64,000 nt of DNA, taken from positions 32,211,047 through 32,275,046 of the forward strand of contig OZ020489.1 of assembly GCA_963971405.1 (NCBI GenBank), written 5' to 3'. Each line of letters starts with the position of its first letter. Position 1 is the stretch's first letter. Origin of the DNA: Psococerastis gibbosa. Lineage: Eukaryota; Arthropoda; Insecta; Psocodea; Psocidae. The position numbers and the translations under genes were made by a program. Shown here piece after piece: positions 1,060 through 30,400 of the stretch. The notes beneath the pieces are model-generated. The model was not told the DNA's origin, did no database searches, and saw nothing but the letters and a program-made list of their open reading frames with translations.

Positions 1060-4000
1060 AACTAACAACTAGGGCTGACCTGCAGGCTACTAGCGGGGTC
1101 ACAGGTGGCGGATAGTGAATGGCCACCAGATATGGTGGTTAGCTGTGAATAAAATGAATAAGCAGCCCCCGACCAAGAGCGACAGAGGTTTAGGGCGTGG
1201 TGGCAAGTCCGGTGGTGGGCTTGTCTAGAAAATGCCACATGTGCCCAAGGATAACCTCTGTGACATGGCGAGAGACTACCGCCATGTAAATAAGCAGCCA
1301 ACCCGGCCAGACACAGCTCGTAGCTGTAGAGGAAGCAGTGTGCCTAAAGGAAGGTCCCCTGATACAAACCAAGACGTCAGGCCTAGTCATCCGGTTGAAA
1401 AAGTAACTAATCATATGCAATGAGTTGCGGAAATGATGTGAGCATCGGTAAAATAGCTAGGGCGTCCCCCAGAAGCGACGCACTGCAGCGGAGCCCGGCT
1501 GCAGTGACAAGAACCCGAGGGCTAAATACCACCGACAGAACTGAGAAAAAGAAGAAAAGAAGAGCTAACAGGCGAAGAAAGAAGAAATTGAAGATCTACC
1601 AGACGAAGGTTCACTTTGCATCACTAAACGTCGGCACAATGACAGGTATGGAAATAGTGAAAACTATGCAAGCCAGAAAAATAAACATTCTTTGTGTGCA
1701 AGAAACAAAGTGGAGAGGTGAAAGAAGTAGAGAACTGGGGGATGGATATAAGCTCATATACTATGGGATCGAAAGAAACAGAAACGGAGTAGGAGTGATC
1801 CTGGACCCCATTTACAAGGCCTCAGTCGTCGACGTAGTAAGGCAGAGCGACCGGATATTGTTGTCAAAAATTATTTTAACCAACAAGACAGTGGTCAATG
1901 TGATAAGTGCATACGCACCACAGACGGGATGTAGCGACGATGAGAAACAACGATTTTATAGTGACTTTGACAACCTCTTAGGCAATATACCCAGCGATGA
2001 AAGTGTGTTAATTGGTGCAGACATGATAAGCCACGTTGGGAAGAAAAGTGATGGATACCCCAATTGCCACGGAGGACGGGCATACGGTGAACGACGGAAT
2101 GAGGCAGGGAGGTGTTCCTTGAGTGGGCAACGGCAAACGATCTGTGGATTGCAAACACATGGTTCCTGAAAAGGAACGAGCACCTGATAACATACAAAAG
2201 TGGAAACCACCAAACCCAGATCGACTTCATAATGCTCAAAAGGACAGATAAAAAGGTCTGCTATGACTGTAAGGTCATACCTGGAGACCCAGTTACGGAA
2301 CAACATCGCTTGCTGGTCGCCGACCTGCATATTAGCGGGAGGCGAAACCGGGAAGTTGTAGTGGAACCAAGAATCAAGTGGTACCTGCTCAGACAAGATG
2401 AAACAAAGACGGATTTCGAGAAAGGATAAATGAGTACATGGAAGAGACAAGAGCCGCATGGAATGAGCAAAGTACAAATGAAGTTTGGAAGGCATTTCAA
2501 AGTTGGGTAATAAGTACTGGTGAAGATGTCCTAGGCAAGACCAAGGGTGGTAAGAAGATCGACAAAGAGGCCTGGTGGTGGAACGAAAGTGTCCAAATAG
2601 CACTAAAGAAAAAGAAGATGGCATTCAAAAAGTGGCAGACCACCAGAGATCCAAGTGACCACTCGGAATACAAAGAGACCAAGAGAGCGGCGAGGAGAGC
2701 TGTGAGGGAAGCAAGAGACGAGGCCGCAGACAGCTGGTACGAAGAACTCAATACAAAAGAAGGGGAAATGAAAATATTCAAAATCGCAAAGAACAAGACA
2801 AAACAGCAGCAAGATAGGTGCAGTTGTCTGCGTCAGAGACGAGCAAGGTCGAGTACTGACCCAAGCTAAAGATATTACTGTGCGCTGGAAGAAATATTTC
2901 GAACAGATCACGAATGACGGAGATACTAGGAAAGACGAAAATGTAGAAGAATGTGCGGGACCTGTCAACGAATACACGGAGGTCGAAGTGAGTAAAGCGC
3001 TACAGAAGATGAAGTCAGGCAAAGTGGCAGGACCAGACGGGGTACCAATCGAAGTCTTTAAGGCGCTAGGAGACTGTGGTGTGACCTTCATGACAAAACT
3101 TGTCAACAAAATCAAGCAAGAGGGCCGCATGCCCGATGCTTGGAGAGAAAGCATCACTGTACCAATTTACAAAAGAAAAGGCGACGCACAAAGCTGCAAC
3201 AACTATAGGCCTATAAAGCTGATGAGCCACTGCATGAACAAGGTATGAGCGCCTCCTGGAAACCCGCCTCAGATGCAAATTAGAAGACGAAATAACCGAA
3301 AACCAACTTGGTTTCATGAAAGGGCGGGGGACGACAGACGGCATATACATCTTGCGTACAATGCTAGAAAAACACCGAGAGTTTCAGAAGCCACTACACT
3401 ATGTTTTCGTTGACCTCGAGAAGGCCTATGACAGAATCCCAAGAAGCATAATATGGGAATGTCTAAAGAAAAGAGGAGTCGTTGCCGAAAATGTCAATGC
3501 CATCCAAGATATGTACGCGGAATGCTCCACAAGAGTAAGAAGCGCAGCTGGCCTCAGTGAGCCATTCAGTGTCAAATTCGGGCTGCACCAGGAATCAGCG
3601 CTCAGTCCGTTCCTCTTTGTTATTATAATGGACACGGTGACAAAACATATCCAAGGCGAAGCCCCAGCGAGCCTTCTTTTCGCGGATGGCATTGTAATAA
3701 GTACAGAAAGCCGACAGGAAGCTGAAGCTGAGCTAGCCAAATGGGTGAAAACGCTGGAGGACGAAGGCCTAAAGGTCAACAGAGGCAAGACAGAATACAT
3801 GGAGTGCGTTAAGCAGACTCCCGGTAGCATAAGCGTTGGTAACCATCAGCTAAACAAAGTAGGAAAATTTAAGTACCTAGGCAGCACGATTGGCGAAAAC
3901 GGAGGCTGCGATGACGATGTGAAGGCGCGTACTGCTGCGGGGTGGGCCAAGTTTCGAGAGATGTCCGCGGTCCTGACTGACAGAAGGATGCTAAAGAAAT

Positions 4001-4466
4001 TGAAAAGTCGCATATACAAACAAGTGGTCAGGCCATGTATGATATATGGCGCTGAGTGTTGGGCCGTGCGTAAACGCGAAGAACAAGTGATCCACGTAGC
4101 GGTGATGAGGATGCTGCGGAGGGCATGTGGCGTAACATTAAATGACAGGCGCAGAAACGAGGACATTCGGGAAGAAATGCGAACAACGGACGTGGTGCAA
4201 AAACTAAGAGGGAAGAGGCTCAGCTGGTGGGGACACGTGCAAAGGAGAGAGGCATCAGCGCTTATACGAAGAGTGGGAGAGGCGATGGTATCTGGACGCC
4301 GAGCACGTGGGCGCCCAAAGCTCACCCTGGAGAGGAAAATTGTAAGCGACCTGCAAGAAACCGGGCTCACAAGGGAGGAGGCGCAAGACAGAAACGTCTG
4401 GAAACGCCGCAGCTCTGCCACCGACCCTCCATGAGGAAATGGCGCGGAAAAAGTAAAAGTAAGTAA
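1060..4466 (+). mobile_element. Degenerate RTE-like non-LTR retrotransposon (LINE)
   Basis: A LINE with an apurinic-like endonuclease followed by reverse transcriptase, of the group often annotated in animal genomes as craniofacial-development-protein-2-like plus RT. The coding part starts near 1420 and ends at 4434. About 350 bp of 5' region precedes it, and an inverted relative of that region lies at about 53050-53260 (shared phrases 'ggtggcggatag' and 'cttgtctagaaaatgcca'). The 3' end is a short AGTAA-rich tail, without long poly(A), as is usual for RTE elements. The 5' boundary is approximate. It lies downstream of the serpin's last exon, in the opposite orientation. Confidence 0.85.
1420..4434 (+). 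pseudogene. RTE-like LINE polyprotein, endonuclease plus reverse transcriptase, frameshifted
   Basis: The reading frame is broken into pieces at about 1420-2169, 2112-2429, 2438-2869, 2880-3248 and 3316-4434, in different frames. The endonuclease part shows VQETKW, SAYAPQTG and an altered catalytic region (GADMISHVG where the family normally has an Asp-Phe-Asn motif). The reverse transcriptase part shows GPDGVP, the motif A-like FVDLEKAYDR, motif B with Glu replacing Gly (HQESALSP) and motif C as FADG where active enzymes have two Asp. The C-terminal part keeps the family's WWGHVQRR and GRPKLT segments. Frameshifts plus loss of a catalytic Asp mean this copy is dead. It has no role in the neighbouring genes. 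Confidence 0.9.
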
Positions 4467-5362: not shown

Positions 5363-5490
5363 TTATGGAGAGGCAACGCGGCCAGCGAATAAAACGGAGC
5401 TTTCTTTACTGTTTATATAGAAGAGAAATGGATGGTCCACGTTAAGTTCTAGCGGAGGTGGTGGCATCATCCGCATCATCATCCTTACAC
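5363..5490 (-). CDS. Serpin RCL cassette 12 (terminal; P1-P1' Arg-Met)
   Basis: The most downstream cassette. Acceptor 'tttaatttctag' is followed by GT GTA AGG. The loop reads [12 protein letters not shown] and the core [12 protein letters not shown], ending FAGRVASP and TAA. Counting from the hinge as in antithrombin puts Arg at P1 and Met at P1', suggesting a trypsin-like target. Unlike cassettes 2-11 it has no good donor after its end, so it is probably the 3'-terminal exon. Entered in phase 0 from an upstream cassette, its first codons are GTG TAA (Val, stop), which would make it the common 3' exon. It is shorter than 60 codons and easily missed. Confidence 0.88.
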
Positions 5491-6084
5491 CTAGAAATTA
5501 AACAAGTTTAGAAGACATTTGCAACCAGCTGGATATAACAGCAACCATTATCAACTAACAGAGAATCCTCGCTCTGACTGTTCATTGGTTGGCTTGGGTA
5601 GAGCATTGTTTCCCGCCATAGATATATATTTTTTTTTAATTTACGCAATAGTGCAATAACAGACATTAATTGAAGAGTCTAGAAGCCGAGGGGGGCAAGT
5701 GAAATTTTTTGCGTTTTGGAGTTAAATGCACCATGCTGTTACTATAACTGCTATTTATCCTAGTAAGCAACAGGGGATCTATCATTTTGACAACGTTAGA
5801 ATACATGGGAAGGGGGTATACCTATATATTTTCAATTACGATCGTAATTACAAACTTTAGCCTCAATTATCTTGAATGTTTATTTTTGTCACTTGCACCC
5901 TTTGGCCTCTAGGCACTCCAATTTAAAAGTCTACTTTTTACAATTAAAACGATCAACAAACTGCTATTTCGTTGTAAAATGAATGAAATAAAATAGTGAT
6001 ACTACACGTCTCTCTCTCTCTCTCCATAAGTCAATAATGGGCGCTATTTTTGGGGATTTACCCTTAATCAAAGGACGCCACTTT

Positions 6085-6125
<41 letters not shown>

Positions 6126-9100
6126 CTATAAGGAATTTGTCGAAGTTCTAGGCTATGTAGGAGAAGAGTTCAAGTCAAGTCCTTTTCACATATTTTGGAT
6201 TTTAGTGATGGCAGGCAACAAGTGAATTCGGAATTGTCGGGAGTGAACTGCCTATTGAACTATTCATTAACATATTAGCCTATATGCTATTTTTAAAAGC
6301 TATTATGACTTACCTGGTAAATTAATAGGAAAGCAAGCTTTGTCCAACTATTCTAAAGACAAGTTTATAAACAACTAGTGTTTGTGTATAAGTTTTGCAC
6401 ATTTGCATTAAATTCAATCGGTTGCTTATAAATTAGTCTTTCGAACTTAACGCTCACTACCAAAAAAAAAAAAAAAAAATAATAAAGACATGCATTAGTT
6501 ATAAATAAATAAATAAATAAATATTGACTTTTTGTTCTATTGCTAAGTTAGTATTGTATTGTAGTGTAGGCGGCCCAAGGGCGTGGCGATCAAAAAATTA
6601 AAAATTAAAGTTCATTGTGTAATTAATAGTTAAGCCAAGCTTTAAACTTGGGTGGAAATGAGTGGAGGTTAAAGTTAATATAAATAAAAGCCGTTCATAA
6701 AGCAGAGCCGCCTAACGTCAATTATGCAAACTTACCGCTGTCGTGCAATGTTACTACGCCATTAAGAATTAATAAAGGCATTAAGCAATCAATAAAATTA
6801 ATAGCCCATAAAAAAAAAAAACTATGAAAATTAGTACCTTTTCACCAGGAGCATTAAGGCGTCCCATGAAAATAGTAGAAGAAGACGGTGAATGATAAAT
6901 GAAATAAATGAAAGGCTTGTCCAGATTGATTTTGAAAGGAGGAGGTGGAAGACTACAAAGCATCACCGTCAAGCCTACAACATAATAAAAGAACCGGTCC
7001 GAGTTCACTCAAACATGCTTTCCAATTTATAAATTAGTAGATATAGACATGTGTAATTTCATAGGAAATAATTTCCCTATGGTTAAATTTCAGATCCCTC
7101 GAGAGGGGGGGGGGGGTCCACCTCAATATAGTAAAAAAAAACCATTAAAACTTAATTGCATATTCTGGAACGAACCAACACATTGTAACAGTAGTAACAA
7201 TGACACACACAAGGCACGTAATGTTATTGGAGCGTGAATTTTCCATAATTTCTCAAAAAATAATTTTTGGCACAGAAGCAAATATTTTTTTGGGAATGCA
7301 ACCTGTCCGTTTTTGTTACCCTATTGAACACCTTAAACATACCTGAAGGTAGAAATCATCGATAGAAAGGTTCCACAGCAAATATATTTTTTAGTCATTT
7401 TTCATGAAAATTGAGTTATTTTTATTTTTTTACCCCCAGAAGCAAACTATCAAGGAGCAAGCGACCCCACGCATTTTGTTAACATTAATAACGACTATAA
7501 TATTTGTGAATTTAAAAGAAATCGTTGGAGCCGTTTTCGAGAAATAATTTTTTTAGACGTTTTTTTGAAAATATTGAGTTAGCCCAAAATATAAAAAAAT
7601 GGTCTCGAGGTATGATTTTTGTGAACCTATATATGCAAAATTTCATCAAAATCGGCCGAGTAGTTTGTCCGGAAATCGATGAACAGACAGACAGAGCGAC
7701 AGCGACAGACAGACATTTCGTAAAAACCACTTTTTTGGGTTCCTGAGACCTCAAAACGTGTAAATCCGAAATCTCGGAATCGAAAATTTGAACCATCACA
7801 AAGCTTTCCTAATACTACGTATAAATTGGAAAGCAATTAGAAGTGCACTAAGGCAGCAATAATACTCGGATATAATGTATAGTAGGTAGGTTAAAGATGG
7901 CGGACTGCTATAGGCATGACTTCTAAAGAAGTCTACCAAAAATAATGCGATGTTCCCCTTTCTCCAGTCCTCTCCATAAACATTGAACATAGCCAAAAAC
8001 ATACTGAACCAAATTCAAAACCCCAGATAGTACCTTATAATTTGGTGAAAGCAGGCGACCCATGAAAATCGTTGAAGCAGACGATGAATGGTAAATGTAA
8101 TACAAGAAAGGCTTGTCCATATCGATTTTTGGGGGAGGAGGTGGTAGACTATAGGTCTGCATAATTATACCTACAACAATAAGGTAGGCGATTGAACTAA
8201 AACGCAGACGGTAACACTCGGATATAATGCATGTCAGTATAGTACAGACGTACAGTGTAGGTAGGCTATAAATAGAAGACTGCAATTGCTATGACTTATA
8301 AAGAAATCTACCTAAAATATCTCCACCCCCCCCCCCCCTCAATAAACATGGGTCATAACCAAAACACGAAGCCTGTCTTAACAAGCCCTCTTTTAGTACC
8401 TTGTAATTTGGTGAAAACAGGCGACCCATGAAAAGCGTTGAAGCAGACGATGAATGGTAAATGTAATACAAGAAAGGCTTGTCCATGTCGATTTTTGGGG
8501 GAGGAGGTGGTAGACTATAGGGCTGCATAACTATAACTACAACAATAAGGTTGGCGATTGTACTAAAACGCAGACGGTAACACTCGGATATAATGTATGT
8601 CAGTATAATACAGACGTACAGTGTAGGTAGGCTATAAATAGAAGACTGCGATTGCTATGACTTATGAAGAAATCTACCTAAAATATCTCCACCCCCCCCC
8701 CCTTCAATAAACATGGGTCATAACCAAAACACGAAGCCTGTCATAACAAGCCCTCTTTTAGTACCTTTTAATTTGGTGAAAACAGGCGACCCATGAAAAG
8801 CGTTGAAGCAGATGTTGAATGGTAAATGAAATAAAAGAAAGGCTTGTCCAAGTCGATTTTGGGAGGAGGAGGTGGCAGCTTCTTACTCGCCATACCTACA
8901 GCTACAAAATAACGAGGTGGTCGAATGTCGAGGGGATTTGAATATTGGCGGGAGAGCCACATGATAGTGACAATAATAAAGTACTATAAATGTATCTTCT
9001 GCTTAAATTACTCTTCTATCTGAGATTGGTGATCATCATGGCAATTTGGATCTTGGAGACTGCTGCTTTGAAAAGGGAAGTCGCCCTCTTGCCAAACCAA

Positions 9101-12100
9101 ATTTATAGTGCTTTATTATTGATCATGCGGGAATTCGACTCTATCCAGGTTACACCGTCTTAGTTCAGATAGCTACATTCCAGGTATCCTTGCCACAGTG
9201 TAGCCACTCAACCACCGCTTCAAACAGTTGCCAACTCCCGCCAGTCTCTAGATACATGCTGCTGCACATCAGGAGTTTCAACAAGAGGTCAAGAAACCCT
9301 TCGTTTTTCCAAACTCTGATTAATAGCTAATGTAACAATGTAAATATTGTAATTGCTACATAACCTGGAAATAGGATGCACTATATTGTATGCTACAGTA
9401 CAAATTCATTTATCAGAAAATATTCCACTAAAACTTATATAAAAACAGGCTGATAATTGGAAATTTACCATGAATGTGAATTTTTAGCAGACTACGCCAC
9501 AAGAAACCATAAATTAATGTTGGCCACAATTTAAGGCTCAAAACGCGCAATTCGCTCATCGAAAAAAAATTTCTCGGTTGTAAATAAATAAATAATGAAT
9601 ATTACTAAGCCAACCTAGCGGAGTTAGAGCTCTTACACTCAACTAGGAAGGCTCGGGACCACCTGCTTTACATGCCCTCCGAAGCATGGCCAGAAAATGT
9701 AGGACTCGAACCAACAACCTATCGGGTGAAAGTCAGAGTGCGTACCACTACTTTACATGTCTTATCTGTAACAAGATCATTTTATAATGTGCCTTCGTGA
9801 GATATGTACTGTATACCGAGCATTGCAATGAACCTGGTCACTCGTCAAGTTGTCTGCCGAAATTACAGTAAGGTCCAACTAATTTAAAACATAGTTTAGT
9901 TCCTATTCACCCACAAATTATTAAAATACGGTACTCTACTGCTTAAGTAGAAAAAAAAGCAATGATATTAGATAGAAAGAGTTAACTAAATCCAAAACAA
10001 GCAACCAATCCAAGATTACATATACCTGTTCACCAGGAGAATGAAGGCGACCCCCGAAAACAGTTGAAGCCGACAAACAATCATAAATGAAAAACAGGAA
10101 AGGCTTGTCCAGGTCGATTTGGGGGGTAGGTGGAGGCAGACTTTCAATCTCGATTATTATACCTACAACATGAAATCTCTTCCTGAAGCAGGGAAAATGT
10201 GAAATACTAGTTGGGGGGGGGGGGGTATGGTATGGGGGTGGGCATTATTATTATATATTGTGGTTCGGCAGTGAAGACGCCGCCCCGGTTAGGCGTAGAT
10301 CGTGGGTTCGAATAGCGCCTCGTCCAGTTTTTTCTGCATCCTCTGATTTCGATTATAACAAATGTCATGAAATCGTAGAGTTGCCAAAGATATCAGGACA
10401 AATAGAAGAAATTTCTCTGAGTATTTTGATACATGATATGTATCTCTTTGTAGCACAGATTGGCTACAATTATTTAATTTGATTTCTACACAAACGATTG
10501 GTGTGATTTGTTCAAGAATTTTGGCCAATTTATGTAGTGGAGCATTTCTGCTCAATAAATAGATGTTTTTGACGGCTCCACGATCGATATTCCCTGTGAT
10601 AATTGACTTACTAAAAAAACGCGTATTGGGGGCTCCCAATAGCCAAAATAACACGAAACAAAGTCCCATTACCAACCATGAACCAAATCCAAGACCTCTT
10701 TAGTACCTGTTCGTTGGGAGAACAAAAGCGACCCCCAAAAATTATTGAAGCAGATGGAGAATGAAAAATGAAGTAAAAGAAAGGCTTGTCCAGGTCGATT
10801 TTAGGAGGCGGTGTTGACGTTGTCAGACTTTGACGCGCCATCAACAAACCTATAACACGAAATCTCTCCTTGAAGCAGCGAAAATATTAAAAACTACTCA
10901 GTGACCATGTGAAAAGCTGCAATGTGAGTAGCTCCCAAAGATTTGTAAGCAATGGACGCAAAACATGCAAACATATAAAAACGAAGGGTACAAGATAGCG
11001 AATCACACAATAATTATTTGTTATTAGTGTACCTGAGTAGGTGATGAAAAACGCCCAAAGAAAAGTAGTGTGTTAGATGAGGCATGATAAATAAAATACA
11101 AGAAAGGTTTGTCCATGTGAACTTGAGGTGGAGGGCGGAAACTTCTTAACGATAAAGATACACCTAGAACATAATAACCCACGTTAGTTCAAAACTTCTG
11201 TCAATAAAAATTGACAAAGCAGTGTCCTCCCACATTTAAATCACACATAAAACATAAAATCCCAAGATCGGTCTACACATAAATTTGGGTACATTCACTA
11301 CCCATTCTTTACATAACTTAAGTTCACAAAGGGTCATGATTACCGCCAGATACATCTCCACCGTATAAGCGTAGAAGCGGAACATTTCCGCTCTCTGTGT
11401 GACACCCAGGAAGAAATGGACAAAAAACACACTAAGACGTGGCCTACGCTAGTCAATAGTAGAGGTTCACCAGATTGTGTGTTGTATTGGGTTGCAAGAA
11501 AGCTGACGGCGGAAACCCGATATTATGGCGTAATAAAAAAACATAAGGTATAAAAGAAAAGCATTCAAAGAATGTGTTAATGTGTAACACACTCCTATAG
11601 AAATTATAGATCGATTGGGTTAATCAGCAGGTAAATACAGCTGGTTCAGTCGGACTTGCGAATGTTTGAATGATCTTGGATCCAAAGTAGGTGAACATCT
11701 GGTACATTTTATGACAGTTTTCCATCTGCCAAAACAATACAGAAGTAAAATAATACCAGTGATGTCCAACTACGAATGGGGTCCTTGGTTAGTTGCTGAA
11801 ATGGGCCACGAACCAATTTTTAACTACAAAAATACAATTGAAATTAATAATAATAGCATAAAGATTGACGGCGAACCGGTCATGAAAACTATCTATAATA
11901 CCCAGTTACAATACAATGGCGAAACTATATCTATTACATACATAGAGCTGTGAAAAGTACCTACTACCTAGTACCGGCAATAATTGAAGGTAATGAAATA
12001 CTGGGCTTATTCCAATTCCTGTATTAGAATAAACACAGTGTTGCATTCCTTTCAATTGCTGCTCGAGTGGTATAGTAATTCTTTTGAATTAATTTAGACA

Positions 12101-15100
12101 TTCTGTAACAATTACCGGTAATTAATTTACCTCCGAGGGGTTGCTGACACGACCCAAAAATACTGGTAGACTTGCAGTGTTGTGGTAAAAGAAAAATAGG
12201 AAAGGCTTGTCCACGACAATACGAAGGGGAGGAGGACCTCGCCGAAGAATAAAATGCACCTTGGATGCCATTATGCCTAACAACAGATAAATTACTTTTT
12301 AGCTACTTCTACGCTACGACAAAAATGTATACTGGAAAAGTTTGACCATTGCAGTAAACAGTCATACTTTTATGAAGATGGTACCCAAACAAGCAAATAT
12401 ACTACAACTCACACCTACAAGACAATAAGAGACTTGCAAGGTACCTTATTCTGGAAAGGTTACTCGGCCCCAAAACAGAGTAACATTAAGGGTCTTATAT
12501 TCAACGTAGAACAAGAAAGGCCTGTCCAGAGTGAGGGGTAGAGGTGACGGAGATGTTTCAAGCATATAGAAAGTAATAATTTCGTCTGGGAACAAAAGAA
12601 ATTGTATCACATGCAAGGGTTTGACACAAATTAAGGGCTACCTGCAATACAACTATAAAGGAAGCACCATTACAAAGTATTATTGTAATATTTGTTTTTG
12701 TTGGGCTGGTTAATTCCTCATAAAGTCTTAAATGTATTATAACTTAATTTAATTTAGCATATTTAACTTTAATTTTATACAATTTACCTGTATCATTTTA
12801 TGTATACTTGTCTTGTTGGAAAAATTGGAATAAATACATGTATGTATTTGATTTGATTGGATTATACGAGGCAGCTGACTAAACTATTATTTTTTTAAAA
12901 TTCATTTTACATTCAGTTAAAAAATACTTTGAATACAGCCATTTTTTTCACAGGAAGTATGCGCCAATTGTCTCGATATATCATACAACTTTTCCAGGCC
13001 GTGATGTTATGCGCGATAGTTTCAATCCAGCGCGCAATATAAATACCATAATTAGTACCTATACTAGTGCCTACTGTACACGTACGTACGTGTAATAAAA
13101 TAGACTAATAATACAAGTATGGTGTAGAAAATTCAGTTAAGCACGAAAGTTATACGTAATTAAAGCCGGCCGCCATACCAAGTTGAATCCAGCGGACCAG
13201 AGCAGGTTCAAAGATGCAGATAACTTGGTCGTGTGCACAGAGCCGGTAGGGAAACATGGTAGGACTTGCCCTGGTCACCTCCGAACTAATCGTGTGACTT
13301 CACTGTGTTTCCCGAGTGGTTCGGAATCCACTATAATCAGGAGGTCCACTGTCCTATGGGCCCACACCGTGGCCTGGGACTGTGTCCAACCATTCTACTA
13401 CTACACGTAATTAAGGAGTGTAAAGTACAGGGCCAGTGTAAAATGGTGTCAGCGTGCACAATGAACATGGGCGCCAGTCCTAGAGGCCAATTAAAGGGGG
13501 AAAGTATAGAAGAACTACAATAAATCGAAATACCAAAGAATTTGACAAATTTGAAAAATATGGGTTTATTAAATTAAAGCCTGATATGTGAAAAAAGTAG
13601 TACTGTTTATGGGCGGGAGAAAAGGGGTACGCGATTTCTTCTCAAACACGGGTGTCCACATGCCGACGCTGGTAAAGAAATAAACCATGAAGTATAAAGC
13701 ACAATAGTAATTTAATAAAATCTTAGTAGATGTAACGTATATTGATCAATTTTTGCAGTGTATACCTAGGCTTTACAATAAATTGATAAGCACTATATAA
13801 AAAATATTGGAAGTAAAGGTTTCTAAAACAAAATGTATATAAAACTGAGGCGAGGATGTAAAACTGTATGCGTGTACCTTAGGAGGGTAAGGCAAGACGG
13901 CCCATGAATAATATAACGCCAGATTGTTTATCCACGATAGAATACAAGAAAGGTTTGTCCAAAGAAATTGCCATGGGTAGACGAGGAGCCATGAAAGCAA
14001 CAGCCATTATTCCTAAAGACAAAAAACAAAATGAACGTCTGTCTGCAAAGGATAAACTTGATGCGACTACATGGAGGTAATAGAGATGGAGTAACATAAT
14101 ATTATAAAAAGGTACTACGAAATCCTCAATATAGTTTTGCGGAAAATGAGACAACCTTGAAGACTGAGTACATAGGCTACGCATTCCCACCGCATCGCTT
14201 ATTATATTAATGACGAAAATTACTGTAAAATATTGCAAACTATGAAAAGCGTACGGCACAGGACCAACAATTAATATTCAGATCACCAACAATTCGCTAT
14301 TGTGAGTTCGTAAGTGTGCAATTGAAACTGACAAATAAATATTATTTTATTGGAATCGGATCAAATACAGGTGCACAATATTCTTTCTTACCTTCGGAAA
14401 CCAGTATCTGTACTTTTTTCTTCATTAACTTTTCTTAACGAAAATGAACTGGACTTTTGGACGAAGCCAATAAGCAGGTAGTCTTTATAACCTATTCTAT
14501 GCAAGAAATTCCAATAACTGATGTCTCTCGCCAAAGAGGTAGGAAGTTTTCCGCAAATAAAATATTTCTGCGTAAGAAGACGAAACTAACGAATGCCCCT
14601 AAATGTATAGCATTTCTTTGCAATATTAACCTATTAAATATTGTAATTTTTGTTAAAAACATAAAAGACGAAAACAACACATACAAGATCCAGTTATTAA
14701 GATCTAGGTACAAAGTTGATAAGATGGGAACACACACATGCATACTGCTACAAAAAGTCTGGATTCCTTTAGTAAATGCACTAAAAAAGAATACATACAT
14801 ACATTTGATATTTCAGTTCTCCCAATTCAGGAGTCCATTACGATAAGCAAATAGGTTACCCACTCCATGACATACGAGTAGGTACATGCAGTACATACGT
14901 AAATACATTATATTAATATTAAGCATTAATCAATATTTTTTCTCCTTATAACTAAATTTTGAAAAATTAAAATTAAATTTATTTATTGTATACTAGAGCG
15001 CAGGACCACGCAGGCTGGCGCGATGTGGCAGAGCAGGCCAAGGAGTAAGTACGTAGGCTAAAAATGCAAGCTTTGCATTTTGCACCTGAAATATTTCGAC

Positions 15101-18100
15101 TCCAAAACACAATAAAGTTCATTTAACTGATTTTATAGAAGTGTCGTAAATCAGTCGCGTGAACAGCCTGGTTTTTCAGAAAGCCTGTATATGTTATGAT
15201 TTTTTCGCTGTACCTGTATTACGTATTATATTTTCAATAAATATTTTATTATTATTATTTATTATTATTATTTATTATTAAGACCATTATCTTATCTCTG
15301 GGGCTGTGTAATGTGGAATTAATCAAAATTTTGTTAACAACAATAAAACGGGGCATCATTTGTTTACAAAATATTTTGAAATCTCTGCTTTAAAAGGGTT
15401 TCTTTGCTCAGGAATAACTATCATGTTTAATTAGTTACATAGGTACTTCGGTACAACATTGGTTAGACTTAGAGTTAGGAGAAGTTGGACATTCAAGCGA
15501 GAAATAATTTTTTGAATTCTGGAGCGACCTGGTACATTTTTTCAATGACTGGTCAGAGGCGGCGTGGCTTCAGGTGGCCCCAGGATCTGAAAAATATTTT
15601 TGCCGAGCTCGAATATACCCCATCTGTCCTATGTAAAACTCGAGTTAGACTATCATTCAACAAAAAAATGAAAAAAAAAAAAAACTATAGATTATAGTTC
15701 ATCATGAACATCCATCTTTTCTTCGGCAACAGATCCAGGAAGGGTCCGAATCATTCCGGCGAAGAGAATGACACCAGACGCAATGATTGAGAAGAAGAAT
15801 GGACGATCGACGTCAATCACCAGCGGTTCTGCCACCATCAGCGATCGTTTCATTCTCACCTTCAAAGCTGCCAAACGAAAGAACCGTGCCAAAAATATCC
15901 TCGACATTAAAATTTTGTTAAGATTCTAATCCAATCACCGGTGTTAAAGGAAAAGTTCAAAACTTTGGAATTTAACGTTATGCTCCCCAAAATTGATGAT
16001 TTCCAGTTTGCAGATTCTTCCGATGGATTGTTAACAACTGTCCTTCGTACAACTACGCGATCTACGATATTAACAATCGCGCACTCCTTTGTAACAACTT
16101 CAGAAATTTATTTAGCAGTTTCTTTAACTATGTCAACCGACGAATGAGCGAAATCAACAACTCCTCAAAAACTGCTTTAAGTTTTATCACAATTTAGACA
16201 TTAGTGATTTATGCAGTGAGTTATGATGCTACTACCATAAAAGTTCTTTAGTCGAATTTCCGAAGCAACTTAATCGTTACAACTCTTACAGCCACGCACC
16301 GATCAATCAGTTAGTTACAACATAGTCTCCCAGCAGAATGTAACAAATTAATCAGTCCACACATTCACCACGCAGGTACAAGTATGCACAAGAAATAACA
16401 CATAGCAAGATACTATAAGATAATGTATGAAGCTGTTAATCAATCTATACATAAATCTGGTATCATGCATCGTCGGTTTTCTCGGAACCTATATATTGTA
16501 ACAACACAATTTGTTGCTTTACGTTTTCCGCAATTTTCAATGCCAGGTATACAGTACACACCATATACTATGTTTTATTGACGTGTAGAGACGATGGGAA
16601 GCATGTGGTCCTTGCCATAAAGCGAGTTTTGAACCAAATTTTGGAAAATTGACGTTCGTCGAAGTAGTTGATTTGAAAAATGTATAAGGACGTACAAAGC
16701 TACACTAATGGATTTTTAAATAGACATCTTTCGTATAGAAATCCGACATGTCTGCTATCCTCTGATTTTTCAGATTTACTGGAAGAAGCATTTGAAAATT
16801 TCTATACGAAAGACCTGCATTTTTATGGCCTTGGCTCGGTACTAACTGCAATGTAAGAGTCATTCAGCAAAGCAAAGCACAAATAAATCAGCTGAAACCA
16901 AAGCGCAAAAAAAAATTGTTCGCGTGACACAAATCTAGAAAGTATCAAAATCATTTTAGCTACTTCGCAAGTAAGGTGGTAGCGTGCTTGTACTTGTGCA
17001 AGTCTCTACACACCTTGCGATCGGAGACGTGTCGTAATTGGACACATATACCAACTAGGTTACTTAGTGAGGCGATTGAAGAGGTTAATCGGATGCATTT
17101 ATTAAAATTTTTGTACGCGATTAACTTTTTAGCAAAATATAAAAAATATATATATTTGAAAAAAAGCTTACCAGTAGCCGCGGCCGCTTCTGATCCCTCC
17201 TCATTGACTTCAATATAAGCCTTCTGGATGGCTTTGGAGACGTATAGGGGCACGTCGCAGATGCCACTTAGATCTGCCTTGTGCGCATCGAAAAGATCAG
17301 AAAGTCCCATCTTGAAAACAAAATCAACGGGATTAGTTTACAACGCAGTTCGGTGCCTTTGCCAAGCAACATCATTAATAATAATGTATTTTAATTGTAC
17401 AAAACAGAACATTGTGCCAATTTCATTGCACAAAAACAAATATAAAACACACAAAGACGTAGCCGAACGGGGAAAACCAAAAAGTGGTTGGAGATTCCCT
17501 CTCTATGCAGGATCACGAGCTGCACAATGGATGAGTTTGCCACGAAGGTGCGGTAGTGTTGCCTAATAAATCTCGTTGACTGCACTCACCTCCACTAGAT
17601 GGTCATTCAAGTCAATAGTCTCCTCTATTTTGAACCTGGGCATTTTTACCACCACTTCTCTTTTTGACATGTCGCCAATAAGACTTTGCAAACTGATATC
17701 TTTGAGTTTAGGTTCAATTTCTTTCAAACCTTCGATTTCATCGGGCACAATCACTATCATGCTCACGGCATCACCCTATAAAATGAAAGTGAAAAATAAA
17801 TATACCGTACAGTAGTTTACTATGGTGCATTACGAGCATAAAAAACTACATTGACATATATATATAAACCAAATACTAATGGCAATGTAACTAATATTTC
17901 CTAGCTATCATGATTGTAATAGAATAATAACGTGTTGAATGGTACTTTGTAGGGTGTATCCCGCACGCCTCTAAGAAGGCATGGGAGCCCTAATTGTATT
18001 TCAGTGTATGTTTGTATTTGATGAAACAAAGAATTTTATTATTATTATTATTATTACTTGGGGGCCCACGGGTTATTTGTATTATAAGGGTATAATTGTT

Positions 18101-21100
18101 AATTTATAAATATATTCCTTCGGCGCAGGGGAGTACCGGCCGAATAAGAAGAAGAAGAATTATTATACGGTATAAGCTTGAAATGCTGATATTTTTTTTT
18201 TCTCTTTTTCGTTGGTAGCTTCTGCTGAAAAAAATGCAATGTATGTAAACTAAAATAAGTTGGTTCAGTAGCCCTTCGGGGCTAAAGCTTGCCTAATATG
18301 TCATCAAATACAATAATGTCATTTCTTGAAAACTCCGTTAGATTATGACTCAATTAAACGATTTTTCATCAAAACTGTCGCAATATGCCGTCCATAAATC
18401 CAGTCCCAATATTCCTCTCAATGCAAGGCAGCCACATATACTGTAGATTGAAAAATCAATATTGCTATTGAAAAATAATTGATTGTGTACCAATTTTAAA
18501 GAAGCGTTCGAATGTTGCAAGAAAGGCTGAGGACTGAGGTTATGGCATACCTGGTACGGCAATTCAATGATCTGAGCCTTCAAGTTATCATTGCGGCCAA
18601 CGCGGAAAGACTTCTTAACATTCATGAATTCGACTTCTTTAGTTTCAGTTGCACTCAAATGGAAAACATCCTTCTTTGTCTCTTCAACAGGGAATTTATT
18701 GACCCAATTCCCCTTGAAATAAATAGCGTTCACAATGACAAGTTTGGTCAAGGCATTTATGGAGTCTGAAATGGAAAAAAAGTTGGTATAATTTAAAGAC
18801 AAATACTTTCCCAGTCCCGGTTTTACCCATTCTACAACCAAACTGTCAGCTGACTACAATTATTTTCTACGACTACTATTTGTACTATTTACTATTTGTA
18901 CTATTTACTATTTACTATTTACTATTTGTACTATTTCGTACTATTTGTTAAATAAACAATTTTTGTAATAGTCTAGCCTACTATTAGCCCAGGGTAGATA
19001 CCCTGAAAAATGGTGAGAAAAAAAATATTAAATTATAGTAGAATGAAACCCATTTGAAATGAAAGATAATATGACGGACATTAAAGGAAAAATAAATTCC
19101 GGGCGATCTGAGTTCGGGAGGCAGGTAGGGGTGGTTTTTAAGGGTGAAATACGGTACATCTTCATTTCCGACAAAACTACAAGTCCTTTGGAAAAACGTC
19201 AAATAGCAAAAAGGTAGATAATTCAAAGATGTAAAACTCTAGCGATTACACTTTTTTCACATAACCTCAAATTTTATTAGAAAAATGCCAAAAACCATGG
19301 TTTTGGTTTTTATTTTAAACTTTCACAAAAAAATCTATTTACGTGAAAATTGGGGAAAACCTACTTTTCTATGTTCTAAATACAGTGTAATTTTTTTGAC
19401 TTAAAATTTAATTTTTTCCAGCTAATTTTGACTATACATGGAAAAAGCGCCCTAATTTTCAATTGAAAAATCTCACGTCAAAATGTCGATTTTTTTTTAA
19501 ATTAGGTGAGCTTTTTGTTTTTTGAAATCTCAACTTTCCGATGGTATAAAGAACAATGTACACTACTGTGCAAAACATTCTTAAAAAATGCAAAAAACCA
19601 AATCGAAAAATGATGTCTTCAATATATAAAATATAATCCGGTCAATTTAGTCATCCAAAATTACAATAACTCGCATCTAATATTGTACTAAAATATCATT
19701 CGATTTTATTTTTTTAGGTTAGGTAACGTTAAACATTCTATTTAAGAACGAAAATATTACTATTTTTATTTTAGAGCTGATTGACACGGATATAAATATA
19801 GGGCTTAGATGAACTAAATTATTTTATTTTATTATTTAAAAAAAAAAAATAATAATAATAATAATATTAAATGGCTGGTCGAAAAGTATTTTACTCCTAT
19901 ATTTTCAAATATTCTCACCGGCCCCCCTGCTTGGAGCGGAAACATGTTTTCGTCTGTAGATCTAAAACTCTTTGTTGACAGTGCTTTAAAATGATAACAA
20001 AATCTACTATTTTGCACTTATATTTTCAATTTTTCCTCTGGCACCCTGCCGGATCTTGCTCGCAAAATCCTGAATCCAACCCTACTAGTGGAATAAGTGA
20101 GAAAGTTATGTAGGTCTATGGGAGAAGGGCGCAAATCTTGACCTAGTCAAAAAATTGTGTAAATACGGGCCTGAATAGTAAGGACTACATAATGGATAAG
20201 AATGGGCAAACTTGGACGGATTAAATAAATAATAAGGACTTTCTTTGTTTGTTCTATTACTAAGCCAACCTAGGGGAGTTAGGGCTATAGAACCCTCCCT
20301 TACACTCAACTAGGATGACCCGGGACCACCTGCTTTAAATGCCCTCCGAGGCATGGCCAGAAAAGGTAGCCAGTGTGGGACTCGAACCAACAACCTTTCG
20401 GGTGAAAGTCGGAGTCTGTACCAATGCTCTACAGGTCCTGATTACTGTCGAATCCTGGAATAATGTGGTTTCGTAATCATTAATACGCAGTTTTTTTTTT
20501 TTTTTTTACATAAAATACAAACCTTTCGAGATGAGTTCTTTAATTTTGTCTTTCGTTTGTTCGGCGACCCATCCATTTATCTTCTTGGCAGCATCTACGT
20601 TGTCAGAGAAATTGACTTGGTTAGGTTCGGCTTTGAATCCATTCATCAGTAATTTCTGTAGATATAAAATTAATTATTATCATAGGTACTTCTAGGATTG
20701 CTTCTATCGTTATATTGCTGTAGATAATGTGAGTTGTTTTTTTGTAGCCTAGTAGCCTGGATAAAAGCACTATAACTTACTCAAATAATGTAAGTAGGCT
20801 ACAGTTCCATCATCAGCTGCCCTGGCATGCCTTTTCTTTTTAAATAAATGGCTAATCGCATCCAAATAATATAATTAATATATCCAATTGACCTCTTCAG
20901 TCGCCCCTTAGTACCCATGTTGAGTTACGAAACGTCTCCGATCGCATGGCTTGCAGAGACTCGCACAAGTACAAGCATGCTACCACCTTGCCATCGAAGC
21001 CGATAGTTAACATGTGTAAATCTAAGCAAGACAACGTGTCCTATCTAAAGGCAAAAATATTCCTTCGTTAAGGCTTAGTGTTCAAAATGTTTTGTAAACA

Positions 21101-24100
21101 AGAAATTTTACTGATTTTTTGACGAAAATAATTTATTGCTCATTCCACAGATACAAAGATAACAAAGTGAACAGATAAAAAACTCATACAATTTTGTAGC
21201 AAAGTTGTAAATCTGTGAAGGAAATAGACAGCTTTCACAGAAAGCTCGTATATTTTAAGATTTTTTTTCATCTGTTCCCTTTTATATCTTTGTGGCTGTG
21301 GAACGAGCAATTAATTAATTTCGGTCAAAAAGTACGATAATTTCTTGTTTACAACACATTTTGAACACTCAGCCTTAAGTTTAAGCTTCCAAATTCTTAC
21401 TTATTACCCAGTTACGGTACCTAAAGCATACATTACTGTATAATTGTTGGTTCGGGCAGTCAACCTAATTTATCCATAGCCATACCTCGAAAATTATCTG
21501 CACTCCTTATCTAATCTCACCACAGTGTTTTTACTCTACCTTTGTGGTCCTTTCTCTTAGGCGCCGTTTGCTATCAGAAGTAGATAAGTTTAATACAGCG
21601 ACACAAAACTAACCAGGCAGCTTAGTTAAGCATCTCAATCAAACAATTCAATCAAACAAACAATCGTGACAGATTATAGACAAAATTAACTACTCGGAGA
21701 AAAGTAAATCCCTGTTTTCCCTACATCTCTTGCATTATTGAACCCATATTCAACAAACGGCTATACTGCACAGCTTATTTTATTCTTGTCAATTCTGGTA
21801 CTGTCGTCTGTCCAATATTATTCGAGAAGTTCTGTAGCCAAACTTACCACAAATTCTTTTTTCATAACAAACTGTTCGTCAGAAAATAGTGCGTTTGCAA
21901 TGTGTAGAGTCAAATTTGAATCCGATTTCGTGAGAGATCTCAATGCCGTCCCAAAAAGTTCAGCTGCCTTTTCTTTCGATTTGGGTAAAAATACGGAGCT
22001 CTTCAATTGCTCAGCTGTCCTGCCTTCAGCGCCTGCGTATACCATTGCGAGTGCGGCTTCAATGCTGATAGGCGAGAAGAATAAGTTTCCTGTAACAAAC
22101 AAGCAAATACAAATCTATGTAGTTTACTGTATATAAAAAACAATGTTGCTTTGATAAGTCGATAGTACTAGGTAGGTAGGTACGCAATTTTGTCAATTAT
22201 GACCATAGAATAAATATTTACTATTTATTAATATTTGACCAGACTTTTAGAGTGACCAAGACTCAATAGATGAACACTGAAGATCGATGTCACGGATGTT
22301 CAAAATTGTTATTCAAAATTTCGCTGCAAACTACCTACTACCGCATCTCTGATTTCCACCGTACCTTCCTCACTAGCTGCTAGCTTTCAACAAGATAGGA
22401 TAAATTCGATGCTAGCATCAAATCTCCTTTCTTCCCGTTACATCTTTACATAATAACTAAGTTGCCAAGGCCGTAGCCAGAAATTTGTATCGGGAGGGGT
22501 CCATCTGGTCACAGGAGGGGAGATAACCTCAATATATTTCAAACTCCATTCTATCTAGTATCCACTGCAAATATTTCGGGCGTAACTCTTAATAAAATCG
22601 AACAAACTCGGTGTTTCGTTCGTTTCAATTGCTGGCCCATCAGCAGCCTGATCGAGGCGATTATAATACCGCTATTTATTTAATCCCCTGGTATTAAAAA
22701 TTTAAACAAGATAATTTTATAATGGAAAGTGCTATTCAAAATTTGTTTGTTTACAGTTATAATCCTAGGGTATTTATTTAACCCCGGTGTTATAAACGCC
22801 TCGATCAGACTGCAGGTAGATCTATATTCGATGGGATTCTTTGAATTTACGATGGATGATTACATTTTTCCTTATGGTCGAATCCTGTTAGACTGTTCGT
22901 CATCCATACCTATCTCATCGTATTCAAACAATTTTTAAATTGTGTTTTGAATACTATCTCGTCATCACGTCATGGTCAGACGGACAGTAAGGTCGTGCTT
23001 GCTGTTGTATGTAGCTCATAATTGGAATAATGTTTCAGCCGCAGCCGATACCTAAGCCTGATAAGCAAATGCCAAGGTTAGCAGCCAATCCACAGGTATT
23101 CCTCATTTTTCATTTGCAGCAGCCAATCGCTATGGACATTATGAAAAATAACAAATTTATTTTTCAAAAAAATAGGAATTTAATTTTAGTCTTCAAGTCT
23201 ACAACTATACCTTATTAAGAGCTATTCAATGTTAACTTTCATAAAATATTTGACATGACTTTTATTATTATAGTCTATGTAGTTCAGACCAATTTCCGCC
23301 TTGACGACTGGAGCGTTCGTTGTTACAATTTTTAAAGGGTTGATACAAGTTTAGGTCAGAAGATGTAGAGTAGTGGTAATGACTTTGACTTTCGTCCAAC
23401 AAGTTGTTGGTTCGATTCCCACACTTACAGCCTTAACTCCGATAGGAGGAATCAGCAATAGAAAAACCTGAGGCATTGGTTTGGCCAGAGCACGACTTTT
23501 CTTTTCAGAGCAGCAGTCTCCAAGGTCCAAATTAGCATAATGGTCGCCAATCTTCGATAGAAGAGGCATTAAAAGAAGAAGAAGCAATAGAGCAACAAGT
23601 TTTATTTATTTATTCATAAGTTCCAAAGAGTTGTCACAACACCCAAAATGTTGGATATACCGTAGGTGACTTGAGAGATGTACCTACCTACAATCAGATT
23701 TGTACGCACGCGCAGATAAACGATTGGGCTAATTTCTTTATCGATTGATCGATAAGCGTAAAATACAGCAGCCTACTTCATATCAGAGCTTATAAAAATA
23801 ATAATCGTGAATTAAGAAAGTAACTATATACAAAACTCCGTCGTGAGGGGGGAAGCTGTGTTCAAACGAGCATACTGTACTTTCAATAACAACCTAGGCA
23901 TCTAACTTGATTACTGACTATGGTGACTAACACGTGAGTCAGTCAATAAATCCTATTGAATAAAATTGAAAAGCACTGGTGGCAACAAAGGACACGGGAA
24001 AACAGGGCAAGGTACAGCTTGGTTACACCGGCATATCTAACAAACAATTAAAGGCATTGAAAGGACTGTTTAAAAAGCCAGCATATGCCCTTGCGTAATA

Positions 24101-26844: not shown

Positions 26845-27139
26845 AAAGCTATCTTAAACATGAACGTGAGTCACCGTCACCGGCAGGCTGGGTTTGTCTA
26901 CTCATGACAAGATAATTTTCGCTTCTGCTTATTTTATATTTTATTACCTCGAATCTGCCAAATAGTAGTATGAGCCATTGTTTTCACTAAATGTATGCAC
27001 TGGAACACATCTAGAGAAGTAATGAAGTTACTTACTTGGAAACATACAACGCAATTAAATTTGAAGGCCAGCAATTTAACACAGGTTGGGTCTGTCAAAC
27101 AAGTATCGAAAGTTTTTCAAGGTTTGTTTGGCGTCATCG

Positions 27140-27293: not shown

Positions 27294-27434
27294 ATGTCAG
27301 TTTACTTTGAGAAGAAGTTGACTACAAGCTTTGGCGATGTTTGTACTGATGTTGCATGGTACAACGACAAAGTATTAGCCGCAGCATGTTTGTCACAATC
27401 TGATGGGAGTTACATAAATATTTATGATACACAG
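27294..27434 (+). CDS. IFT140 exon 1
   Basis: 141 nt, phase 0 out. [16 protein letters not shown] begins the first propeller; ends YINIYDTQ before GTAATT. Confidence 0.93.
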
Positions 27435-30400
27435 GTAATTTATTAAATAATGTTTCTTGGAAATTCGATTTAGTTTCAGGTTGAATATGATTGTCAGATT
27501 AGGCAGAAAAGTCAGCTTATATTATAAATTTAATTTTTTATGCAAACAGTAGAAGAAACCTACAGTAGGCTATATCTCTCTGCACGGGAAAGCGCGATCG
27601 GCTAATGGATATTGTACAAATCGACGTCCCAGCCCCAATTTTTATAACAATATTATATTGTGGATAGGCTCTATAATTGCAATTAAAATATTGAAAGAAG
27701 TACCAGAACACTGGATTTGTGACTGAAATCAAACTACACGCCATGGAAGTTAGTCCTAATGCGAGCCCACTATGGAGATTCGTGTCAACTTACTTCTGGG
27801 GTTACAAATCTCCTTCTTCCTCAAGCTACAGCCGGCTGGCTGGTTGGCAGCAACATGTGGTATCGATGGCCCCACTCCCCTCAACCCTTTCACGCCCTCA
27901 AACAATACAATTTTGAATAGCATTGTCCAATACAAAATAATCTTATTTACATTTTTACTCCCAGGTTAAGATTAAAAATAATCGCAATGGTAGGCCCACT
28001 GACCCTGTCTTCTAAAATTAAATTAGATTTAAAAAATAGCAATCTATTTACATTAGCAATTAACTAGGCCTATTACATATTTTTATGATAAAAATATTTG
28101 TCGAATTGACTGCTAAATATACTGTTAATTTTAATTTTATAATGTTTCGTTTCCACGAAGTCATTGGAGAAATTCTTCTTGAGTCTCAATCTAGCGATTG
28201 GTGTGCAGCTAAATTTATCAGCAAACATTCATAGTTGCAGGGCTACGCATGAGTTCTACGTTCTTATTGCAAGGTTATTTACAGTATAGACGAAGTAAAA
28301 TGTAAAAATCATAGGCGTGTTGGCCTGTTGGTTGTTTTATTATAGCTCTATTGTCTTTCATAAAGCCTAATATATTGTTTCAGGGTAATGTTACCAAGAA
28401 GCTATTGTCACCCAAGGACTGTGGCCCTGTGACGTCACTGGCATGGCATGCCCGGGGATCCCTTTGCGTTGCCTGGGGTGCAATGTTCTGTTCCTGTATG
28501 GAAGAAGACAGCGACGTTGCCATTGTTGAGTCCCCACACAGAGCGCCTATACGACTCCTAATATTTAGTCGTCAGGGGGGTCGCCTTATTTCTGCTGACA
28601 CGGTTAGATATTGATGACACTCTATTCCATATGAAACAGACAATCTTAGGCGGTTTCGACCACTAACGCCTGAATGCAGTGGACAGATCTATCCACTGTG
28701 CATATGAGGAGCAAACTTTCGAAACGGCACTAATCCATTTTCGTAAAATGTTCAGGAAACACGAAAAACATAATTATTTCGGCTTTATTATAACGGGAAT
28801 ATAGGATTTTAACCCTTCAGAAGACTGGGTTAAAAATTTTTTGTTTTTGTTTTGATTAGCAATCCTTTATTCAACTCATCTTCAAGATGGAAATTCGATG
28901 ATAAAATCAATTTTTATTTTTCATGGATTTGTGACGTTTTGAACGTTTGCTCCTCATTTAACAACTTCAAGCTGACTTCCGGGTAAAATTATCAGACAGC
29001 TGGACCTAGACACCTTTAAATACCCCTCAGTAGAACGGCTGAGAATAGCGTTATTACAAAAGTATTGCCATTTTCTCATTCCCTGAAGTTAATTCTAACT
29101 CATCCACAGCAAATGCATTTCAACGCCTTGTCGTACGCTTGATATTTATATCTCATTAGCATTTCTGACAGTATTTTGCCCACAGAAATAAGTCCGGCGA
29201 ACCATGCTTATGCTCTTCTAACGGATTGTTATATACTGCATATAATTCCATAGACTGATCCTAGTATCAAAGACATTCCTTGTCAGTGCCTGTGTACACA
29301 AAGCAGAAGAGACCTACAGTATAGGCAGTGACTACTGTTAGTGCAAGAGTAAAAAGATGGCTACGTTAAGAAATAGTGGCGAAAGTAAATAATCAATTAT
29401 GTGAGTATTTATAATTATCCGGTCAATCCACGACACGGATGCTGATTCTTACGAAGTATCGAGCCGCCATTCCTGTCCAACTAGGTAAGATTTACAGGTA
29501 TGCATATTATATGTGTTGCAGGACTAATCATTTTATATTTTTACAGGATGGTGGCCTGGTTGGTTGGAACTCAGCTGGTCGGCAGCTTCTGACTATATTT
29601 CATCACCAGTTTTCTGATTTCATATCGCATGCTGTGTTTATAAATCCGGCTGATAAAGGTGACCACATTTTATAGAAAAAAGTACAGGTATCCTAGTATG
29701 TTCTTTTTCTTTCATGGGTATAATAAAATTAAACTTCTTTAGCTTTTTTTTGAATACTGCATTATATATTCTATATAAAATAGAAACGCAGCAAAATATG
29801 TAGGGTGCTAAATGAAAAGTCAAGGGACACATACATGTCAAACTTACGTGCTCGATATGATGGATCTGTACTTGATGCCTCAGACTTTGTTGTCAAATTG
29901 TTATAGAAATATATTGCAATGTTGACCATAACTTTTACTTGCTGTTAAGCTATACATACTACATTTAAGTTGCGCACGCGAAGGATATTATGCCTTAGCA
30001 GAAATATAATTGTGCTTTTTTAAATAAATTAACAGTTTTGAATTGTATAATCAAGGCTTGGGTTTCAGGTTTAGATCTGTGGGGTGCTGCAAGAGCTGCT
30101 GTGGCAGGGGACGAGAGAGCACTGGATATGTTCACTAATCTCGACATGTTCGGATGGCGCCCAAAAACCGCGGGTAGACGAGCCATGACGTACCCCAGTG
30201 AGTCCCAGGAAGGCACTTGCCTTTTTGCAGCGTCGTCATCAGGTATGTCGAAATAAGTGTATAGGTTTAGTTTGCCACACAACCCAGCAAGGAAGCGCGA
30301 AGTGAAGATTGTTGAGGCTCGGCTCTGTTGCCTGTATGGCTTCGGTGTTGGCTGCACATAGGAATAAGTGCCTAAGTGGCAACTCTCTCCCTGGAAGTAG

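Follow-up and report, generated by a model that had tools for sequence, protein, structure and literature searches.

We describe a serpin gene in a 64,000-nucleotide stretch of the genome of the insect Psococerastis gibbosa (Psocodea, Psocidae; GenBank assembly GCA_963971405.1, contig OZ020489.1, positions 32,211,047 to 32,275,046), referred to below as the window. The gene lies on the minus strand and is very probably of the Spn42Da/serpin-1 type, in which one body is followed by alternative reactive-loop cassettes, here 12, so that a single gene would encode a set of suicide protease inhibitors with a shared body. We assign it to this type because of the splice position at the end of the hinge, the conserved residues that frame the loop and the alignment of cassette 1 with Spn42Da, and the same three points back the likeness to Manduca serpin-1 and fly Spn4 that had been drawn in a first-pass annotation of this DNA. 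In the proposed mechanism, the hinge exon (ending at 17172) of one precursor messenger RNA would be joined to one of the 12 cassettes, with splicing picking one cassette per transcript. The isoforms would have a common body and would differ in the bait loop, from P7 onward, and in the C-terminus.

The body is formed by six constant exons, which span 26356 to 17172 and join into one open reading. Splice sites were scored with a generic frequency matrix, and acceptors were ranked against the 3,396 AGs of the minus strand. In the donor sequences given below, a slash marks the end of the exon.

26234..26356, minus strand: first body exon, acceptor in the top 0.2% of AGs and donor in the top 0.1% of GTs, with an internal ATG (MSDTDAYS) behind an in-frame hydrophobic segment
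21848..22089, minus strand: serpin body exon, seen by open frame, Pfam Serpin and tblastn
20523..20655, minus strand: serpin body exon, seen by open frame, Pfam Serpin and tblastn
18551..18765, minus strand: serpin body exon, seen by open frame, Pfam Serpin and tblastn
17590..17775, minus strand: serpin body exon, seen by open frame, Pfam Serpin and tblastn
17172..17310, minus strand: hinge exon (exon 6 of the first-pass annotation), donor CTG/GTAAGC, phase 1

The body is 333 residues long, counted from its internal ATG up to the hinge. Joined to cassette 1, it matched Pfam Serpin (PF00079) at E 1.3e-110 over residues 12-373, covering positions 2-367 of the 370 in the profile and, thus, nearly the whole of a serpin domain. 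Five of the six constant-exon donors were in the top 1% of GTs, and the sixth was at 5.3%. Inhibitory serpins have the hinge motif E-E-G-[ST]-E-A-A-A-x-T. This motif is present in the hinge exon, from which the protein is predicted to be of the inhibitory type. The exon closes on the hinge and one base of the codon that follows it (ACT G, then GT), which places the splice in phase 1.

The 120 relatives of the body that were listed, from a total of 7,066, had identities of 37-49% and included vertebrate and bacterial serpins; Menopon was among them at 42%. The top match of the 120 was P0003 (377 amino acids), with 49% identity and the loop ALKIAMRSM. A Q that replaces H in the body was considered as an oddity and rejected: 47 of the 120 listed relatives have Q there and 67 have H, with six unmatched. 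An NCBIfam search returned no family.

The array itself consists of 12 loop cassettes, which run from 15867 to 5363 on the minus strand behind the hinge exon.

15692..15867, minus strand: cassette 1, furin-type loop, HDEL at the C-terminus and a stop of its own; the homologous place lacks a donor
13878..14012, minus strand: cassette 2, F-M, own TAA and then donor AAG/GTACAC
12445..12585, minus strand: cassette 3, Y-M, own TAA and then donor AAG/GTACCT; two GTs further on score slightly higher
12131..12276, minus strand: cassette 4, V-H by counting, no own stop, donor GAG/GTAAAT
11033..11163, minus strand: cassette 5, R-S, no own stop, donor CAG/GTACAC
10707..10849, minus strand: cassette 6, Q-S, weak acceptor, no own stop, donor CAG/GTACTA
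10026..10162, minus strand: cassette 7, E-S, weak acceptor, no own stop, donor CAG/GTATAT
8765..8901, minus strand: cassette 8, K-K, TAA and then donor AAG/GTACTA; a possible alternative acceptor would give an exon start at 8895
8400..8536, minus strand: cassette 9, Y-S, no own stop, donor AAG/GTACTA; possible alternative exon start at 8530
8034..8170, minus strand: cassette 10, Y-S, no own stop, donor AAG/GTACTA; near copy of cassette 9
6838..6974, minus strand: cassette 11, C-S, no own stop, donor AAG/GTACTA; CTG/GTGAAA at 6846 scores higher
5363..5490, minus strand: cassette 12, R-M, own TAA; weak GT (CCT/GTAAAG) at the homologous place, with the exon end at 5360

Each of the 12 cassettes begins behind an AG acceptor in phase with the hinge exon and stays open through D-[KRH]-P-F and F-x-G, and tandem loop exons of one phase that keep x-P-F and F-x-G are the pattern of serpin-1 and Spn42Da. 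The residue before P-F is K in nine cassettes, R in two and H in one. A profile hidden Markov model (HMM) built from the 12 cassettes was used to search the six frames of the window, cut into 2,911 open fragments of at least 15 residues. It matched the 12 at E 1.1e-26 to 4.7e-16, and the next fragment scored E 0.31, so this search found no thirteenth cassette of this kind in the window. Since the model was trained on the same 12, the informative result is the gap in E-values and not the recovery of the cassettes. These findings bear out the earlier claim of one body followed by 12 same-phase exons with a D-K/R/H-P-F core. Its statement that several cassettes are under 60 codons was right about their shortness and too low in its count, as all 12 are, with lengths of 42-58 residues. 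The claim of a consensus acceptor in each held for the AG and the phase in all 12 cassettes but not for strength: five acceptors were in the top 5% of AGs, three at 6-9% and two at 13-16%, and those of cassettes 6 and 7 were only in the top 27%. By eye, donors (AG/GT) regenerated where cassettes 5, 6, 7, 10 and 12 begin were considered as recursive splice points and rejected, as a GGT glycine codon explains the GT.

The C-terminal pieces are spread over about 10 kb, as might be seen if the 12 cassettes were remnants of distinct serpin genes. We find this hardly credible, because a tblastn search with the body found each of its six segments once in the window (otherwise best E 2.9, no second body) and because the cassettes have a common phase and include tandem copies. 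The array very probably grew by tandem copying. A direct repeat of 95 bases unites cassettes 5-11 in one family, and a core of 53 bases is common to cassettes 2-12 at 60% or more. Cassettes 9 and 10 match to 96% over a length of 300 bases, and 7882-8907 is made up of tandem units of about 366 bases that bear cassettes 8-10 plus intron sequence. Cassettes 1 and 12 resemble loops of distant relatives; the loop of cassette 12, GVRMMMRMM, is similar to loops of lancelet and mosquito relatives.

Another possible explanation of the array is that few of the cassettes are used and the rest are duplicated silent copies. The weak acceptors of cassettes 6 and 7, the modest donors and the close duplication of cassettes 8-10 could be read in this way, yet the open frame, the phase and the frame residues are kept in all 12, and in some pairs the loop is far more divergent than the rest of the exon. 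We regard silent copies as possible but improbable. Between cassettes 8 and 9, 13 of 29 positions differ in the loop and only eight of 108 in the rest of the exon (p 9e-6). The intron that follows differs at one of 60 positions, and the upstream intron is out of register, with 41 of 60 differing. Seven pairs were compared; the contrast between loop and rest reached p < 0.05 in four of them (8-9, 8-10, 11-10 and 11-9) and was not significant in 9-10, 7-9 and 7-10. The pattern suggests that copies exchanged sequence with a break close to the loop, that selection acted on the loop, or both. A small tree of the loops was weakly supported and plays no part in this reading. The fly Spn42Da gene is described as prone to recombination at the loop (PMC2556349).

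How the cassettes end suggests what follows them. In 10 of the 12 cassettes (2-11), AG/GTA occurs 24-27 nucleotides past the Gly of F-x-G, where about 0.005 would be expected per cassette; at the homologous place, cassette 12 has a weak GT and cassette 1 has no donor. The donors of cassettes 2-11 score only moderately, in the top 1-8% of GTs. Cassettes 1, 2, 3, 8 and 12 have their own stop, before the donor or without one, and the other seven have none. Because 10 cassettes carry a donor and seven have no stop of their own, most cassettes have the look of internal exons with a shared 3' exon behind them, and it is cassettes 2-11 that would be spliced to this candidate exon. The same codon is TAA in cassettes 2, 3 and 8, GAA in 6, 7 and 11, TAC in 9 and TAT in 10, which suggests that stops are gained and lost by single changes, with a later stop in reserve.

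Alternatively, each cassette could be a last exon that ends its own transcript at its own polyadenylation (poly(A)) site, and competition between splicing and polyadenylation would then make the choice instead of selection among internal exons. Cassette 1 fits this, as it brings a stop of its own and lacks a donor at the homologous place (the best one nearby scores -2.1 bits), and AATAAA is found at 15276, 15263 and 15250. These hexamers decide nothing, since they are too common in AT-rich DNA, with 1.86 expected per 640 nucleotides. The AG/GTA at one place in 10 cassettes and the seven cassettes with no stop before the donor argue against it, and even cassette 1 has a fair donor on its 3' side (CAG/GTACAG at 15214, 5.8 bits). 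Alternative last exons are therefore a rather unlikely account of the array, which may hold true of cassette 1 alone. It is also attractive to see cassette 12 as the shared last exon, given that it reads V-stop when entered in phase 0. However, a GT follows its TAA close to the donor position of the other cassettes, as would fit one more exon on the 3' side.

When residues are counted from the hinge, cassettes 2-12 have the P1-P1' pairs F-M, Y-M, V-H, R-S, Q-S, E-S, K-K, Y-S, Y-S, C-S and R-M. Counting reproduced 11 of the 12 pairs given previously. For cassette 1, strict counting gives K-R and alignment with PDB 4p0f, Drosophila serpin 4, gives R-S, which agrees with the KR/S listed earlier. 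From the P1 letters alone, the loops other than that of cassette 1 would be directed at trypsin-, chymotrypsin- or elastase-like enzymes.

The furin-like target is the best supported of those proposed in the first-pass annotation, because RMKR/S of cassette 1 is in register with RRKR/A and the cassette ends in HDEL. The 68-residue tail aligns to 4p0f with VRMKR/S opposite VRRKR/A and no gap at the site; 4p0f ranked second of eight matches, behind 3ozq, which does not have such a site. Cassette 1, therefore, has both marks of the Spn42Da furin isoform, R-x-[KR]-R at P4-P1 in register and a retrieval tetrapeptide for the endoplasmic reticulum (ER) at the C-terminus. In Spn42Da, the P4-P1 residues RRKR are a furin-type site that is cut after the P1 Arg, according to PMC4006314. 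By eye, three of the 120 listed relatives of the body have the same layout: Asbolus (VMMKRS...HDEL), Gryllus (RFRRS...HTEL) and Eriocheir (MRRS...RDEL). Convergence among ER-type serpins of different phyla is possible, as PMC2556349 warns. Together with a leader exon, cassette 1 and its HDEL would give an ER-resident inhibitor of furin-like proprotein convertases. The HDEL ending, the downstream donors and the possible alternative N-terminus were not in the first-pass annotation.

Several points weigh against the Spn42Da/serpin-1-type reading or parts of it. The eight AG/GTAC donors lie in the top 5-8% of GTs, compared with the top 1% for five of the six constant exons, and cassettes 3 and 11 contain another GT that scores higher. 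Cassettes 6 and 7 have the weak acceptors given above. A protein search with the cassette 1 region alone gave 12 candidates, none with E <= 10, and P1 letters do not prove targets. Also, the shared 3' exon was not found when minus-strand AG acceptors below 5363 were scored; several were good and none was outstanding. Among the 15 best, acceptors at 550, 1540, 4947 and others were considered and rejected, since none was preferable to the rest despite good scores, and several are in or beside a long interspersed nuclear element (LINE). The shared exon may lie near or beyond this LINE-type element (about 1.4-4.4 kb) or outside the window.

The cassettes were also read in the wrong phases. On entry in phase 0, nine of the 12 reach a stop at codon 2 (3.2 expected, p 4e-5) and 10 within three codons (4.7 expected, p 5e-4), the expectation being obtained by redrawing synonymous codons from the serpin gene's own usage. 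With cassette 1 left out, the counts are eight of 11 and nine of 11. Taking one member per related cluster gave p 0.0003-0.004 for codon 2 and 0.002-0.011 for three codons, and five deep groups gave 0.003-0.04. In the other wrong phase, none of 11 cassettes stops within three codons. Open phase-0 donors occur only in cassettes 4-7 and 9-11 and, therefore, only cassettes 5-12 could be entered in phase 0; six of these eight have the codon-2 stop (2.1 expected, p 0.001; clustered p 0.008-0.094). Three of cassettes 1-4 (1, 2 and 4) have it as well (1.1 expected, p 0.03). Something else, for example a constraint at exon starts, may therefore underlie the excess, since it is also seen in cassettes that could not be entered in this phase.

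These stops could mean that no mutual exclusion is needed: the cassette joined to the hinge exon would set the protein, and a later cassette, read in the wrong phase, would stop the reading. The overall excess and that among the enterable cassettes favor such a rule. On the other side, the excess was noticed post hoc, the stops in cassettes 1, 2 and 4 cannot serve this purpose and hint at another cause, the clustered p for cassettes 5-12 is less decisive, and cassettes 3 and 5 lack the early stop. Stops are also found when five of the constant exons are read in both wrong phases, in one of 10 readings within two codons and three of 10 within three. We consider this rule unlikely. A little less likely still is its stronger form, in which the cassettes are written twice: phase 1 would encode the loop, phase 0 would give a stop within one or two codons, a downstream cassette would act as a stop and 3' untranslated region, and the 5'-most cassette would set the inhibitor. 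If this were true, a second cassette would merely end the reading of the first and strict mutual exclusion would be unnecessary. We know of no transcript that carries two cassettes. A literature search, judged by the titles and opening lines of the 15 papers listed out of 747, showed no account of wrong-phase stops in serpin cassettes, and the feature may be new. Such stops offer a cheap and general test of tolerance to double inclusion in arrays of this kind.

At the other end of the gene, a candidate leader exon lies upstream of the first body exon.

26948..26978, minus strand: candidate leader exon, ATG to donor CGAG/GTAATA, in frame, donor in the top 2.4% of GTs

Joined to the first body exon, it would give a start that resembles a signal peptide. 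Upstream of the internal ATG, the same body exon is open and encodes a hydrophobic stretch with a mean Kyte-Doolittle value of 2.6 over 11 residues. Forms with and without a signal peptide are, thus, both possible from the sequence. By eye, a possible second first exon was seen at 26781 on the minus strand, with the end GAGCTCG/GTAAGATC and TCAGTCTTAGTCAG before it; it could produce transcripts that start only at the internal ATG. Both extracellular and intracellular forms were recorded for 115 of the 153 insect genes of the clade with N-terminal alternative splicing (PMC10513286).

Other features were observed in the window.

27297..43960, plus strand: IFT140 gene (TPR domains), head to head with the serpin gene
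about 1411..4434, plus strand: LINE-type element on the downstream side of cassette 12, with a reverse transcriptase (PF00078) in 3238-4434 (E 3.2e-26)
9600..9760 and 20270..20420, perhaps also 23400..23440: dispersed repeat, seen by eye

A rough exon join of IFT140 was scored over residues 900-1300. Two lice of the Psocodea, Menopon gallinae (68% identity) and Polyplax serrata (62%), stood ahead of the next insects among the matches listed (49-53%), which points to Psocodea as the source of the window. In the LINE-type element, the open stretches 1411-2166 and 2772-3245 had no Pfam match and the frames are broken. The dispersed repeat includes a stretch like GGTTCGAGTCC(C)ACACT and is perhaps a short interspersed nuclear element derived from transfer RNA (tRNA). 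ARAGORN reported no tRNA, and an Rfam scan found nothing.

Swappable loop exons are already known from moths, flies and wasps, as in Manduca serpin-1, Drosophila Spn42Da and Pteromalus PpSerpin-1, and the present gene fits those points of the serpin-1/Spn42Da type that can be checked from sequence. Manduca sexta serpin-1, from another insect order and likened here by description only, was the subject of work by Jiang in 1994 and 1996 and reportedly has mutually exclusive copies of the loop exon in one gene, which are said to number 12. In a survey of related insect genes, 192 of 731 had C-terminal alternative splicing, with a mean of 7.32 proteins per gene, and 161 of the 192 were spliced one base past the hinge (PMC10513286); the splice in our gene is at the same place. 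According to the same source, PpSerpin-1 of Pteromalus puparum also has a splice one nucleotide (G) past the hinge, an alternative N-terminus and a large C-terminal array. It differs in having 21 C-terminal forms confirmed by reverse transcription polymerase chain reaction, compared with 12 here from genomic sequence.

Drosophila Spn42Da is similar in having a body and then alternative loop exons, with a furin site in register with cassette 1. The furin loop comes first in the fly, exon 5 before exons 6-8 (PMC2770083), as does cassette 1 here. The fly protein has an ER targeting signal (PMC2556349), and cassette 1 has HDEL. According to PMC4006314, the fly gene has forms with and without a signal peptide and the conserved clusters H-P-F and F, G, where the cassettes here mostly have K for H; unlike our gene, with 12 loop and six constant exons, it has four loop and two core exons. 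The hinge consensus given for the fly is similar to the motif in our hinge exon. A 12-cassette array is, thus, described from Psocodea with the furin/ER-type cassette first, as in flies, and ER-type endings with similar loops are present in beetle, cricket and crab relatives. The order of the cassettes and cassette 1 itself can, therefore, be tested as an old fixed part of such genes, with the other loops turning over.

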